Below are positions 7,673-50,125 of a stretch of 64,000 nt of DNA, piece by piece. Position 1 is the first letter of the stretch; each line of letters opens with the position of its first letter. Both the position numbers and the translations under genes were made by a program. Below the pieces are notes generated by a model. That model was not told the origin of the DNA and ran no database searches. It saw nothing but the letters and a program-made list of their open reading frames with translations. Origin of the DNA: Tunicatimonas pelagia (GTDB lineage Bacteria; Bacteroidota; Bacteroidia; Cytophagales; Cyclobacteriaceae); the NCBI RefSeq assembly GCF_030506325.1, contig NZ_CP120683.1:1364001-1428000 (forward strand), written 5' to 3'.

Positions 7673-7971
7673 AATTAAACGATGGTCAGATTTATTTTTT
7701 ATGATTGCTCTATTGTTCGATTGTTGATTAGTCTACGGTCAATAGTCGACAGTCCATAGTGGTCAGTGGTCATTGAGTTACAAGCGGCCGTCGCACGAGT
7801 TAGAAAGTTAAAGTGTTAGCGTAGTTTGATGTACGGGGTTTAGCTGTACCCATTGCTCATTGTCTACTGTACAGTGTCCCACGCCAATTCATCATGATTC
7901 ATCAGTCATTAATCATCACTCTTGATTAGAGGCTACTATTGTTCATACGAAGTAGTTAGGGTTATCGTCAA
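7673..7971. repeat. Cluster of short degenerate intergenic words
   Basis: 299 bp between kinase and regulator genes with no reading frame. It contains several repetitive words: a GTCAATAGTCGACAGTCC / GTGGTCAGTGGTCA run (about 7738-7772), GTTAAAGTGTTA (7807-7818) and an ATTCATCATGATTCATCAG / TTAATCATCACT run (about 7892-7926). Related words recur in other gaps of the window (13.47, 21.57, 46.94, 56.58, 58.85 kb). No promoter consensus for the regulator was found here. Confidence 0.5.
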
Positions 7972-12273: not shown

Positions 12274-12315
12274 GCGGACGGCTAGTCGCGGACAGCTAGT
12301 CGCGGACGGCTAGTC
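12274..12315. repeat. Three tandem 14-bp units
   Basis: Three adjacent copies of GCGGACGGCTAGTC; the middle copy has one change (GCGGACAGCTAGTC). The same CGGCTAGTCGC word appears once at 34675-34685 downstream of the initiator tRNA. Units are adjacent with no spacers, so this is not a CRISPR array. Confidence 0.85.
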
Positions 12316-21541: not shown

Positions 21542-21562
21542 AAAATAGGATATTGTCTTATT

Positions 21563-21602
21563 CTTCTATTAATCATCATTCACTATTCATTCATCATCAA
21601 TT
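21563..21602. repeat. ATTCATTCATCAT-type intergenic word
   Basis: The gap between porT and the DUF2256 gene contains ATCATCATTCACTATTCATTC followed by ATCATCAATTAG, the same word family as the tandem array at 46995-47045 and the gap at about 7892. Confidence 0.5.
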
Positions 21603-21603
21603 A

Positions 21604-21753
21604 GTGAAACACCGCAAAAAAGGCGATTTACCTACCAAAACTTGTCCAGTCTGCCAGCGACCGTTTACTTGGCGCAAAAAGTGGAAAAACGTTTGGGATG
21701 ACGTGGTGTATTGCAGTGAACGCTGCCGTCGGGGGCGCAACAATAAAGATTAA
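21604..21753 (+). CDS. DUF2256 small zinc-ribbon-like protein
   Basis: 50-residue protein: KHRKKGDLPTKTCPVCQRPF followed by TWRKKWKNVWDDVVYCSERCR. This is the complete DUF2256 domain, with CPVC and CSERC cysteine pairs likely to bind zinc. Function unknown; the gene often neighbours unrelated housekeeping genes. GTG 21604 is chosen because the conserved domain begins there; upstream codons are drawn from an intergenic ATTCATTCATCAT-type word repeat and are not protein-like. Located 62 bp after porT on the same strand. Confidence 0.8.
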   Translation: MKHRKKGDLPTKTCPVCQRPFTWRKKWKNVWDDVVYCSERCRRGRNNKD

Positions 21754-21778
21754 GTTGAAGCAGAATAAGACAACCTCA

Positions 21779-45915: not shown

Positions 45916-46941
45916 ATGGAGCGCAAACTTGATCAGGCGTTAGTAAAACAATACAGTGAAGAATTTACCGAGAAAGTGCTTTCTGTTGCCTATGCTACTA
46001 GTGAACGACTAAGTGGTAAGGCCATTCTCAATCTCACTCCAGTGAAGCAAATCAACCTCTTGGTTATCAAAGCACTATTCGATCAGTGGCAGCACGAGAT
46101 CGATAAGCTTCGCAGCCCTTATTTTGACTACGAATCGGAAGAAGTTCAGCAGGCACTGGATGATTTTATCAATACCCTTTCGCAACATATTTCAGTAGAC
46201 CAAAGCCACCTTCAGCCATTGGTTGAGCAGGCTGTTCAAGAAACTTTATATTTAGTGCTTAGCCCTAATGTTTACTACCAACAGCAAGTAGCAACTATTT
46301 CGGCTGAAGGTATCCGAGAAGAAGACGTGCTCACTTGGCTAAAGTACATCAAGATCAACCGCCCCTTATTGGAACTGTACATTAACAAGTTTCGGCAACA
46401 GCCAACCGCCGTGCTCGACACTGATGCAGCTACGCATTTGCTAGATGAAACGGTTAATGAATTTTCTGACCCGCTGGAAGATGCCTCACCGTACGTAGCT
46501 AGCTTTTCGGAAATATATTCTTTTGAACCTGAGCAATTGATGGCAGATAATGAGCCATCTCATTCGGAAGAAGAATCCGTGCGAACACCAGAAGAAGATG
46601 AGCATGAGGAAGCGGTAGTACCAACCGATCCTCGCACACTGCATGATTACTTGAGCGAACAATCGTCGGCGAACACTACGTTAACTGATATTCAGAAAAA
46701 ACATAAAATTGGAAGCATTCGCGAGTACATTGGGGTGAACCAGCGCTATATGTTTATTCGTGAGCTTTTTGGCAATGACCCTCAAGAATACCAACAGGCG
46801 ATTTACGAGCTAGACCAAAAACAGTCGTACGTAGAGGCATTCAATTTTCTTCGTCACGAATTTGCCCAAAAGCACCACTGGAAAATGGATTCAGAAGAAG
46901 TAGTTGAGTTACTAGAAATTGTTTCTAAACGATACAATTGA
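45916..46941 (+). CDS. Conserved Bacteroidota hypothetical protein
   Basis: 341 residues, soluble. N-terminal helical domain (about 1-165; ALVKQYSEEFTEKVLSVAYA, ILNLTPVKQINLLVIKALFDQWQHEI), an acidic disordered middle (about 200-235, rich in E), and a helical C-terminal block (about 255-341) with IGSIREYIGVNQRYMFIRELFGNDPQEYQQAIYELD, a highly patterned segment that is probably a binding module. I know proteins of this shape only as hypothetical in Bacteroidota. Convergent with rodA; the gap holds repeat words. Confidence 0.75.
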   Translation: MERKLDQALVKQYSEEFTEKVLSVAYATSERLSGKAILNLTPVKQINLLVIKALFDQWQHEIDKLRSPYFDYESEEVQQALDDFINTLSQHISVDQSHLQPLVEQAVQETLYLVLSPNVYYQQQVATISAEGIREEDVLTWLKYIKINRPLLELYINKFRQQPTAVLDTDAATHLLDETVNEFSDPLEDASPYVASFSEIYSFEPEQLMADNEPSHSEEESVRTPEEDEHEEAVVPTDPRTLHDYLSEQSSANTTLTDIQKKHKIGSIREYIGVNQRYMFIRELFGNDPQEYQQAIYELDQKQSYVEAFNFLRHEFAQKHHWKMDSEEVVELLEIVSKRYN

Positions 46942-47045
46942 TGAGTAATGATTGATGATGAATGAATAATGAGTAGTTAACGGCATCAATCATTACTCAT
47001 TCATCATTATTCATTCATCATTATTCATTCATCATTATTCATTTA
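46940..47045. repeat. Palindromic and tandem ATTCATTCATCATT repeat between convergent genes
   Basis: GATGAGTAATGATTGATG (46940-46957) is inverted at 46984-47001 with 17 of 18 positions matching. Right of it, 14-bp units ATTCATTCATCATT follow in tandem at 46995-47008 (two changes at the start), 47009-47022 and 47023-47036, with a partial copy to 47045 that runs into the rodA stop codon region. Adjacent direct copies without spacers exclude a CRISPR. Confidence 0.85.
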
Positions 47046-48311
47046 CCGAGTGAGCATCTGTAAACGGTGAGCGTCTAGTTTGAGTAGGATAAATAGCAGA
47101 ATGGTAAACGCCCAGAGCGAAGAACCGCCGTAGCTGAAGAATGGCAAAGGAATTCCAATCACGGGGAATAGCCCAATCGTCATACCAATGTTTACGGCGA
47201 AGTGGAAAAAGAGAATAGCCGCTACGCTGTAGCCGTATATGCGAGCAAAACCGGATTTTTGGCGTTCAGCAATAATTGTGACCCGATAGAGTAGCCAAAC
47301 AAATAGTATAATGAGCACAGCACTGCCTGTCCAGCCGTGCTCTTCACCAATGGTGCAAAAAATAAAGTCAGTGCTTTGTGCGGGAACGAAGTCGAACTTG
47401 GTTTGCGTACCCTGTAAAAAACCTTTACCCCATACCCCCCCTGAGCCGATAGCAATCTTAGATTGGGTTACGTTCCAGCCGTAGCCCATTGGATCACCGT
47501 CAGGATTAATGAGCGCTTTAATTCGGTTTTGCTGGTGGGGCTTTAATATATCTGTCACAAAAAAATCTACGCTAACCACTAGGCTGATTACTGCCACTGC
47601 TGTCACTGAGATACCAATAATGCGCTTAGTCTTGCGCGAGTTGATACCAATCAGCAAGAAGGCGGTAACCACCACGGCAATGATCAGATATACTTGACTA
47701 ATAAATAGTGTGAGCACAAATAAAATTACGGCGGCAATGCCAATCCCTAACAACAGAGGAGAAAAGCCCTCTCGATAAAAAACCAGCACAAAAGCGGCGT
47801 ATACCATAGCCGTTCCGGTATCGCCTTGTAGTATAATTAGAATTGCCGGCAGCCCAATGATGGCAAATAAGGTTAGCTGAGATTTAAGGTTGTAGAATAC
47901 CCGGTTATTGGTACTGAGGTACTTAGCCACCGCCAATGCAGTAGCAAACTTCGCAAACTCAGAAGGCTGCATCCGGAAGGATCCAATAGCGAACCAGGAC
48001 TTAGAACCCGCTATTTCCCGTCCAAACAGCAATACAAAAATGAGGATTAGAATAACACCCCCGTAGAAGAAATAGGCAAATGAGCTATAAAACCGAAAAT
48101 CTACTAACATAATAGTAGTAATGAGTACTCCGGCAGCTATAATCCATACCAACTGCTTACCTGATCTAAGTGAAAGATCAAAAATGCTCTGGTCAGCTTG
48201 CACGTCGTACACTACCGCATAAATGTTAAGCCAACCCAGAGCAACCAGTAGTAAGTACAGTGCAATTGTACCCCAATCTAGTCGGTTAACAAGTTGATTA
48301 CTCTCTCTCAC
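47043..48311 (-). CDS. rodA: Rod shape-determining protein RodA
   Basis: SEDS-family peptidoglycan glycosyltransferase of the elongasome, working with PBP2. About 422 residues with ten membrane spans. Signature regions: KSWFAIGSFRMQPSEFAK, QGDTGTAMVYAAF, HQQNRIKALINPDGDPMGYGWNVTQSKIAIGSGGVWGKGFLQGTQTKFDFVPAQSTDFIFCTIGEEHGW and the final GIPLPFFSYGGSS. GTG 48311 is chosen because it begins RESNQLVNRLDW two bases after the mrdA stop; a longer frame running into mrdA is less likely. Last gene of the mre operon. Confidence 0.94.
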   Translation of the reverse strand: MRESNQLVNRLDWGTIALYLLLVALGWLNIYAVVYDVQADQSIFDLSLRSGKQLVWIIAAGVLITTIMLVDFRFYSSFAYFFYGGVILILIFVLLFGREIAGSKSWFAIGSFRMQPSEFAKFATALAVAKYLSTNNRVFYNLKSQLTLFAIIGLPAILIILQGDTGTAMVYAAFVLVFYREGFSPLLLGIGIAAVILFVLTLFISQVYLIIAVVVTAFLLIGINSRKTKRIIGISVTAVAVISLVVSVDFFVTDILKPHQQNRIKALINPDGDPMGYGWNVTQSKIAIGSGGVWGKGFLQGTQTKFDFVPAQSTDFIFCTIGEEHGWTGSAVLIILFVWLLYRVTIIAERQKSGFARIYGYSVAAILFFHFAVNIGMTIGLFPVIGIPLPFFSYGGSSLWAFTILLFILLKLDAHRLQMLTR

Positions 48312-48313
48312 AA

Positions 48314-50125
48314 TTAGTAAATAAAGTCTCCGTTCAAAACAAATTCCTCCATATGCGGCCGTTCGGTGCAACCCTTCAGATACTGCTCAATCATTAGCCC
48401 GGAAATACCAGCAGCAGCCCGTGCTCCCTGTCCAGCGTTTTCTACGTAAACGGCGACAGCAATTTTAGGATCATCCTTAGGGGCAAAGGCAATAAACACC
48501 GAGTGGTCTTCCTCTCCCCGATCTTCATTATCAACGGTTCCGGTTTTACCACAGACCTCAATATCAGGTAGGTTAGCCCGCATACCGGTTCCGCTCTTAA
48601 TTACATCAGACATCGCTTCCACCGCTATCTCAAAATACTCGGGGCTCACATCGGTATAATTCTTTTCTTGATACTGGGCGAGAGACTGTCCATCTTCGCC
48701 GATAGATTTTATCATGTGCGGAGTGATGTAGTACCCCCGATTAGCAATAATCGCTGCCAGGTTAGCCATCTGCAGAGGTACAATTTGTAACTCCCCCCGC
48801 CCAATAGCATTAGAGTAAATGGTAGAGAATTTCCAGCGATTGTCTCCGTATATTTTATCATATAAAGAGGGGCCGGGCACATATCCTGCCCGCTCGTGCG
48901 GTAAATCAACACCTAACGGATGACCTAAGCCAAAGCTAGTTACGTATTTACGCCATTTCTCCAGGCCAATTTCAGTGTCAACAAAGGTATTTTCAGATGC
49001 TCCTTGGTTGAGCAGCCGGCGGTAGACGTTCCAGAAGTACGGGTTGCAGGATACCCGAATAGCCCCTCGCAAATCTTCATTAGTATGAGGGCCGTGACAA
49101 TCAATGATTCCTCGTTCGCAGCGAAAGCGGGTATTAGGCGTAATCACCCCTTCTTCTAAACCTATCAGTGCCTGAACGATTTTGAAAATTGAACCTGGGG
49201 GAAACGCTCCCATCAGCGGGCGATTAAACAGGGGTTTGGTGGTATCTGAGGCCAGTTTACTATAGTTTTTCCCGTAGTCTCTTCCAGTTAATAAATTAGG
49301 ATCATAAAACGGTGCCGATACGAAAGAAAGAATTTCACCGGTTTTGGGTTCAATCGCTACAATACTACCCCGTTTGCCCATCATTAGCGTTTCGGCATAT
49401 TCCTGTAGGTTGATGTCTACTGTGCTCACCAAATTTTCTCCCGCAATAGAAAGGGTATCAAAAGTACCATCTTTGTACGACCCTTTTTCTACCCCTCGTA
49501 CGTTTACCATTTTGTACTTCACGCCCCGCTTACCCCGCAGTTGCTCTTCGTACTTCGACTCAATACCCAGAATACCAATATAGTCGCCTTGCCGATAAAA
49601 ATTTTCCTCATCTCGCTCTAGCTGACCAGGACTCACCTCACCGATGTACCCTAGGGCATTAGCTAAACTTCGGTAAGTGTATGAGCGATTGGTACGTGCT
49701 TGAATGCGGAATCCGGGGAAATCGACCAAGTAATCTTGTACCGAAGCAAATGTATTGTTGGAAATCTGCTTGATGAACACTGAAGGCTTTACGTAGGAGT
49801 ATTGCTTAGCCTTCATTATTTTCTCATCGAACTCTTCCTTGGTAATTCCGAATATCTCGCAAAACGCCAGCGTATCTTTTAGCTGAACATCCTTCGGAAC
49901 AACTTCTAAGTTGTACACTGGAGCGTTATATACGATTAGCTTTCCGTTGCGGTCGTAAATCAGACCACGGAAGGGGTAGCGAATTTCCCGATCAATAATA
50001 TTACTGTCAGCTCTGGCTTGATAGTCTTCATTAAGTACCTGAATAGCGAATAACTTCACCAGGTAGATACCGGCAATAAGAATGAAAGTGAGCCGAATGA
50101 CAAATTTACGATTGTTGTTGATCAT
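48314..50125 (-). CDS. mrdA: Penicillin-binding protein 2
   Basis: Class B transpeptidase of the elongasome, 603 residues. N-terminal anchor (RLTFILIAGIYLVKLFAIQVL), PBP dimer domain with DRNGKLIVYNAP, transpeptidase domain with SxxK in GAFPPGSIFKIVQA, SxN-type SNAIGRGE and KTG in EVCGKTGTVDN. The final residues HMEEFVLNGDFIY resemble other Bacteroidota PBP2 tails. ATG overlaps the mreD stop (ATGA). Confidence 0.95.
   Translation of the reverse strand: MINNNRKFVIRLTFILIAGIYLVKLFAIQVLNEDYQARADSNIIDREIRYPFRGLIYDRNGKLIVYNAPVYNLEVVPKDVQLKDTLAFCEIFGITKEEFDEKIMKAKQYSYVKPSVFIKQISNNTFASVQDYLVDFPGFRIQARTNRSYTYRSLANALGYIGEVSPGQLERDEENFYRQGDYIGILGIESKYEEQLRGKRGVKYKMVNVRGVEKGSYKDGTFDTLSIAGENLVSTVDINLQEYAETLMMGKRGSIVAIEPKTGEILSFVSAPFYDPNLLTGRDYGKNYSKLASDTTKPLFNRPLMGAFPPGSIFKIVQALIGLEEGVITPNTRFRCERGIIDCHGPHTNEDLRGAIRVSCNPYFWNVYRRLLNQGASENTFVDTEIGLEKWRKYVTSFGLGHPLGVDLPHERAGYVPGPSLYDKIYGDNRWKFSTIYSNAIGRGELQIVPLQMANLAAIIANRGYYITPHMIKSIGEDGQSLAQYQEKNYTDVSPEYFEIAVEAMSDVIKSGTGMRANLPDIEVCGKTGTVDNEDRGEEDHSVFIAFAPKDDPKIAVAVYVENAGQGARAAAGISGLMIEQYLKGCTERPHMEEFVLNGDFIY

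Follow-up and report, generated by a model that had tools for sequence, protein, structure and literature searches.

What fills the space between two convergent genes when it is occupied from one stop codon to the other, and why do the same short words recur in gaps throughout the genome? The question arises in the window (the whole stretch of Tunicatimonas pelagia DNA that was analysed, 64,000 nucleotides), where the gap at 46942-47042 is taken up, stop codon to stop codon, by an element at 46939-47045 that consists of two facing arms built from the degenerate heptad TRATGAN. The parts of this element and its two neighbours, the genes being mechanically called open reading frames (ORFs), are:

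45916-46941, plus strand: left convergent gene, 341 aa, without a Pfam match at E 1e-3, with orthologues in all four of the genus genomes examined
46939-46973, plus strand: left arm, five heptads (TGATGAG, TAATGAT, TGATGAT, GAATGAA, TAATGAG), read from the sequence
46974-46983, no strand: spacer of 10 nt between the arms
46984-47045, minus strand: right arm, roughly nine heptads in inverted orientation, some of them amplified in tandem as a 14-bp unit
47043-48371, minus strand: right convergent gene, RodA/FtsW/SpoVE family (PF01098, E 2.7e-80)

The first triplet of the left arm is the stop codon of the plus-strand gene, and the last triplet of the right arm is the stop codon of the minus-strand gene, the outermost heptad on that side being imperfect. 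In the inward direction, every frame of either arm contains a stop; in the outward direction, a single frame of the left arm has one stop, and the right arm has no stop at all. An earlier note on this DNA had described three tandem 14-bp units and an inverted partner matching at 17 of 18 positions, placed between convergent genes, and this description is confirmed: the tandem array spans 46989-47043 with 3.9 copies and 97% matches, the segments 46941-46957 and 46984-47000 are complementary at 17 of 17 positions, and the whole lies between the two stop codons. The base period of the element is 7, so that the 14-bp unit is two heptads, and a longer pair of arms (46941-46972 and 47004-47035) is complementary at 88%. 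Folded as RNA, the element reaches -36.3 kcal/mol (z -6.65), which none of 200 shuffles equalled. A simple consensus scan for intrinsic terminators (a GC-rich stem followed by a T run) found no site at 46500-47500, and a tRNA is the sole Rfam match above the gathering score across the window, with none at the element.

The earlier note had also proposed that a family of degenerate intergenic words is spread through the gaps of this genome, a proposal that would fall if the words were confined to three loci and showed no statistical excess. The words are found genome-wide. The three-heptad pattern ATGANTRATGANTRATGA occurs 327 times (149 + 178) in the 7.29-Mb genome, compared with a single occurrence of the reversed-pattern control. 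In a sample of 864 kb, made up of evenly spaced stretches and the window, 51 of the 54 runs of at least two heptads are intergenic, even though 88% of the sampled DNA is coding, and arrays occupy 33 of the 450 sampled gaps, which scales up to about 280 gaps of the genome. Spacings between words on the same strand in gaps peak at multiples of 7 (60 at 7, 47 at 14 and 22 at 21), and words that overlap add lesser peaks (13 at 3, 11 at 10 and 10 at 17). The polarity is fixed as well: among word pairs in opposite directions within 60 bp, TRATGA followed by TCAYTA was counted 111 times and the reverse order four times, and all 72 two-armed elements have the inward polarity, with none in the opposite one (59 come from this genome and 13 from stretches of G003 and G002; these elements, like the 312 heptads discussed below, were largely taken from loci picked because they hold arrays). 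When the element was used as a blastn query, 39 of 40 scored places (the best 40 of 218 candidates) matched on both strands, as expected of a palindrome; a plasmid search with the element, run with the low-complexity filter on, gave no match. The loop length modulo 7 is 3 in 22 of the 72 elements, and elsewhere in the window, at 12274-12315, 14-bp tandem units of GCGGACGGCTAGTC stand in three copies at 92%. The earlier observation is real and understated. Beyond it lie the period of 7, the fixed polarity, the overlap with stop codons, the recurrence within the genus, and the fact that the two other loci it named are one-armed and of another make.

Arrays were counted in sampled gaps of at least 30 bp: 9 of the 68 convergent gaps hold one, as do 16 of the 284 tandem gaps and 7 of the 102 divergent gaps. 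Of the 80 sides that face a stop codon, 47 have the arm overlapping it (26 of 44 upstream-gene sides in tandem gaps and 21 of 36 convergent sides); among the other sides, the arm reaches into the ORF on 4 of the 44 that face a start in tandem gaps and on 1 of the 10 in divergent gaps. These counts cover 67 of the 72 elements (18 convergent, 44 tandem, 5 divergent), the five with no ORF on one side being left out. The overlap is typically 3, 10 or 17 bases long, which means that the stop of the gene is the TRA of a heptad. The word itself accounts for some of this, because any ORF extending into an array will shortly reach a stop codon.

The explanation to which we lean, tentatively and with somewhat less than even confidence, is that the array is a two-way gene-end element whose form, meaning its heptad step, its inward polarity and its contact with stop codons, is kept by selection; it would combine a translational stop with a hairpin at the 3' end of the mRNA. 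Each arm is a run of TRATGAN heptads that points inward, mainly at gene 3' ends; at the window element, a ribosome coming from either side would meet stops in all three frames, and a transcript from either side could fold into a long hairpin. This hairpin would form in the cell and would end or protect transcripts, and heptads would be gained, lost and changed through slippage and mutation while the form is kept, by selection rather than by copying. The polarity, the stop-codon overlap, the excess in convergent gaps and the fold z-score of the window element count in favor of this explanation. So do GC-rich hairpins with a T run, seen by eye in several of the short convergent gaps that are free of arrays (42 of 49) and in the Fulvivirga orthologue of the gap beside rodA (L080). 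However, the lack of a terminator-like site counts against it, as do two further observations. In divergent gaps the two-armed elements share the same inward polarity, although no ribosome enters there; and, in the 67 elements with ORFs on both sides, tandem gaps have less G at position 2 of the heptad in their sense arm (.26 vs.41), a bias that is absent from convergent arms. The idea that stop codons are the whole cause of the polarity is weakened by the divergent gaps and by the absence of a TAA preference in convergent arms. RNA pairing that tolerates G-U at position 2 was rejected, the G asymmetry being opposite to the prediction.

An alternative explanation is that a factor, protein or other, binds TRATGA in DNA or RNA in steps of 7 nt, with facing arrays often forming one unit, so that selection acts on the word and not on pairing. 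This is possible, but we consider it less probable than the two-way gene-end element. The composition of the heptads speaks for it. In 312 heptads that are flanked on both sides by good heptads and were not themselves selected, position 1 is T (.86) or G (.11), position 2 A (.64) or G (.35), and position 3 A (.87) or G (.11); positions 4 to 6 are fixed as T (.95), G (.95) and A (.97), and position 7 is free. G003 alone gives a similar, noisier composition (55 heptads, positions 4-6 fixed at 87-91%). Furthermore, the arms behave nearly as independent strings of heptads, arrays occur in all three gap types, and many are one-armed: among the 32 array-bearing gaps of the sample, 16 are strictly two-armed, 10 have a forward arm only, and 6 an inverted arm only. 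The binding factor explains the one-armed half and the fixed word better than a gene-end element does. The 16 one-armed gaps cannot form a hairpin of facing arms, and a hairpin needs no common word across loci; both the one-armed gaps and the fixed TRATGAN count against the gene-end explanation, which accounts for neither. Nevertheless, a factor that reads the word leaves the stop-codon overlap and the convergent-gap excess unexplained. The TRATGA word is also not unique, as a family of AGTCNA heptads has a like polarity (32:6), and pairing is kept in G426, a genome from another family of the order.

How far the arms are paired differs between the genus and G426. In the 72 elements of the genus, the exact complementary run averages 10.7 between an element's own arms and 9.6 between swapped arms (p 0.0003; 4 of 20000 in a second run), and the excess also holds for this genome alone (p 0.0009). 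By fold energy the comparison of own and swapped arms gives p 0.07, by mismatch-tolerant scores p 0.22, 0.07 and 0.03, and in an early set of 33 elements p 0.42; arm lengths within the 72 elements have no significant correlation. Exact inverted duplication is not supported as the origin of the genus elements, whose own arms are hardly better matched than swapped ones, although the small exact-run excess remains. That own arms are barely more complementary than swapped ones also counts against the gene-end explanation, as does the missing correlation of arm lengths. In G426, all ten elements have the same polarity as those of the genus and consist of words such as TGATGAR around an inner stem that is often GC-rich; these elements were found by similarity to one of them. 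Here the arms alone score 17.8 for own and 12.5 for swapped pairs, with 2 of 20000 permutations as good, and with ten loop bases added the values are 22.6 and 14.0. This pairing counts in favor of the gene-end element. One G426 locus (L360, 1492-1598) forms a palindrome without mismatches, its 49-nt arms separated by a 9-nt loop; it reaches past the heptads on both sides, folds at -101.9 kcal/mol (z -18.2), and gives the impression that palindromes are in the course of being perfected. In 16 loci from G426 and nine other Bacteroidota genomes, chosen from pattern matches, facing pairs were recognized by eye in seven (L329-L332, L337, L339 and L340), and the opposite order in none. At L333 (G328 C10), tandem units of about 257 bp stand three in a row, each with a run of TGATGAN heptads.

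The pattern is abundant in all four genus genomes examined (327, 40, 63 and 119 matches); 47 of 55 other relatives do not have it, and the remaining eight have between one and nine. The strict rule identifies an array, with differing words, in the gap that separates rodA from its convergent neighbor in three of the four genus genomes. Both arms are present in G002; in G003 the forward array is accompanied by a looser right arm. The gap of G001 contains a short hairpin, degenerate and built of related words, which does not qualify as an array under that rule; the rodA gap of Catalimonadaceae bacterium JC749, the nearest named relative outside the genus, holds no array. In 1.6 Mb of unselected G003 DNA, arrays are present in 3 of the 7 gaps orthologous to array gaps of this genome (G000) compared with 1 of 38 others (Fisher p 0.009, copies of a dispersed repeat of about 300 bp left out). 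The three divide into 1 of 3 from the random sample and 2 of 4 from loci picked in G000, and the base rate in unselected G003 sequence is 24 of 818 gaps. An earlier count on half the DNA, in which the 300-bp repeat was left in, gave 3 of 7 vs 0 of 17 (p 0.017); both counts use unselected G003 stretches only, and the G000 elements were partly chosen by similarity to the window element. The high success rate of a further count was set aside, as many of its G003 stretches had been picked because they hold arrays. Recurrence in the rodA gap and in G003 counts in favor of the gene-end element, and the four of the seven G003 gaps that hold no array count against it. For the single discordant gap, with an array in G003 and none in G000, inspection by eye suggests a facing pair of CARTGA-type heptads on the G000 side, although the CARTGA family as a whole has no polarity; at L167, also by eye, a TRATGAN element in G000 corresponds to AGTC-type heptads in the G003 gap.

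At fourfold-degenerate sites, three genes taken together differ from G001, G003 and G002 by 54, 60 and 66%, respectively (42-70% for single genes), and in a simulation of neutral decay a detectable array is left in 0.65% of cases at 50% change, in 3% at 40%, and in 15% at 30%. Persistence where neutral sequence should be nearly erased points to selection, to conversion from other copies, or to repeated arrival. Conversion and repeated arrival predict near-identical copies; however, 13 arm pairs share at least 24 letters and 6 share at least 27, where heptad-shuffled controls give 14.4 and 11.2, and the 27-letter matches among L001, L002, L004 and L193 are within the shuffled expectation. At 20 or more shared letters there is a weak excess (93 pairs vs a shuffled mean of 69, the highest of 20 shuffles being 94). 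Recent copying was rejected on these counts. That some arrays stay in one gap across related species while their letters change suggests that the arrays in these related Bacteroidota probably do a job at gene ends.

The arrays could also be a neutral by-product of replication slippage in steps of 7 nt within gaps, with the polarity inherited from a few founder palindromes. Among long simple repeats, heptanucleotides are reported to be the commonest in most of the genomes studied (Mrazek 2007, as related in PMC4679880), and other words of period 7 occur in the same gaps, among them CARTGA, which has no polarity (8:7). In addition, of 395 Bacteroidota genomes, 66 match the pattern at one or more places, and the matches listed are, by eye, largely uniform tandems. 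Slippage, however, would keep a single array uniform and would not maintain one consensus over hundreds of arrays in several genomes at near-saturated divergence. We regard this as the least likely of the four explanations.

The two other loci at which the earlier note placed the same words, at 7.9 and 21.6 kb, bear on the question of mobility. Related words are indeed present near 7899 and 21573, but both loci are one-armed and neither is a whole inverted element:

7700-7927, plus strand: stretch common to the copies of a repeat of about 300 bp, consisting of AGTCNAY heptads, a core, and inverted TRATGAN heptads
7899-7918, minus strand: the heptads at the end of this dispersed repeat, read from the sequence
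21573-21599, minus strand: one-armed inverted array just upstream of the DUF2256 ORF
21604-21750: DUF2256 ORF, 49 aa (PF10013, E 1.2e-22)

The 300-bp repeat (L061-L072) has 17 matches at E < 1e-30, the window's own included, among the best 40 of 156 candidates, and several copies add a stretch beginning GGTTCC and GGTCTCC heptads at the end. Of the four genus genomes, only this one matches the repeat at length (best 40 of 142 candidates scored in G000); in the other three, a query of 7760-7925 matches only at the heptad end (in G003, the best 40 of 61). The AGTCNA heptads form a second family (L029, L054, L058, L060 and window 7729-7772) that occurs in facing pairs whose order is mostly fixed (32:6 for word pairs within 120 bp), and the CARTGA heptads a third, with no fixed order. 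The array at 21.6 kb was not found in the orthologous gap of the other three genus genomes, and is one gain or a threefold loss; it counts against the gene-end explanation. A 15-nt inverted pair (21553-21567 and 21759-21773, 93%) flanks the DUF2256 ORF together with its one-armed array.

A further possibility is that the family is a mobile or selfish palindrome of REP or MITE type, dispersed through the genome and inserting without harm at the ends of genes. The family is palindromic and dispersed, with blastn matches on both strands at nearly all scored places, and its abundance is restricted to the genus; copies of a composite repeat that includes these heptads have spread here, only this genome of the four has the 21.6-kb arm, and arm pairs sharing at least 20 letters are somewhat in excess. 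We nevertheless consider such an origin unlikely. There is no corresponding excess at 24 or 27 letters, arrays recur in orthologous gaps, and this genome, the one richest in arrays, has no match to the IS200/IS605-like tyrosine transposase family Y1_Tnp (PF01797), on which ground a REP/RAYT system was rejected for this genome. G001-G003 contain 17 PF01797 loci, none of which has an array in the flanking DNA examined (up to 1.5 kb on each side), and the three PF01797 matches of G426 likewise have none in the surrounding DNA examined.

In our ranking, the two-way gene-end element stands ahead of the factor that reads the word, and the mobile and neutral explanations stand behind both. The gene-end element accounts for the polarity and the contact with stops, as well as for the recurrence and the relatives in G426. 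We observe the words, their period, polarity and placement, and their recurrence in some orthologous gaps. A broader proposal, which we put forward as doubtful, is that selection maintains a heptad grammar whose form outlasts the letters, and perhaps even the word family, within the same gap. Related facing elements of other words in G426, G347 and G091 would then belong to a new class of bidirectional gene-end elements, read by a dedicated factor or by ribosome and RNA polymerase.

Heptamer repeats in bacterial gaps are already on record. The cyanobacterial STRR heptanucleotide repeats lie in gaps as direct tandem arrays. We found no description of inverted TRATGAN elements in the titles and abstract openings of the open-licence literature searched. 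Closest to them are the intergenic TAACTGA heptamers described from Beggiatoaceae, cyanobacteria and five Bacteroidetes, with 169 direct sets and one indirect set in the main genome (PMC4679880). Both kinds have seven-base units, an intergenic location, stops in forward orientation, a presence in some Bacteroidota and a patchy distribution. However, the TAACTGA repeats are described as directly repeated copies of one exact word, which in the main genome mostly lie a short way before starts (PMC4679880), whereas the elements described here share the 7-nt period and the intergenic placement but are built of degenerate TRATGAN, often in facing arms, at gene 3' ends and overlapping stop codons. 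The REP/RAYT repeats (GTAG, CGTC) are likewise short dispersed intergenic palindromes, many of them downstream of coding regions, and the GTAG type is tied to tyrosine transposases (PMC3733652); here, by contrast, we find degenerate heptad runs instead of copies of a fixed palindrome, and the genome has no tyrosine transposase match. Stem-loops at 3' ends and bidirectional terminators share the hairpins near stops and the preference for convergent gaps, and AT-rich 3'-end stem-loops are known in low-GC firmicutes (PMC1590033), but our elements lack the GC-rich stem with a T run and have loosely paired arms of one recurrent word. RUP and other small mobile repeats are short, intergenic and palindromic too, and RUP is said to carry stops in six frames (PMC2229807); they are described there as near-identical copies with terminal inverted repeats, in contrast to degenerate heptad runs. 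The accounts cited leave the role of heptamer repeats open. The anatomy described here (inward stops, facing arms at gene 3' ends, recurrence in orthologous gaps) makes function testable, and the gene-end reading, if true, would constitute an unrecognised way of finishing two converging genes at once. The elements are a new variant among the intergenic heptamer and palindrome repeats already described.
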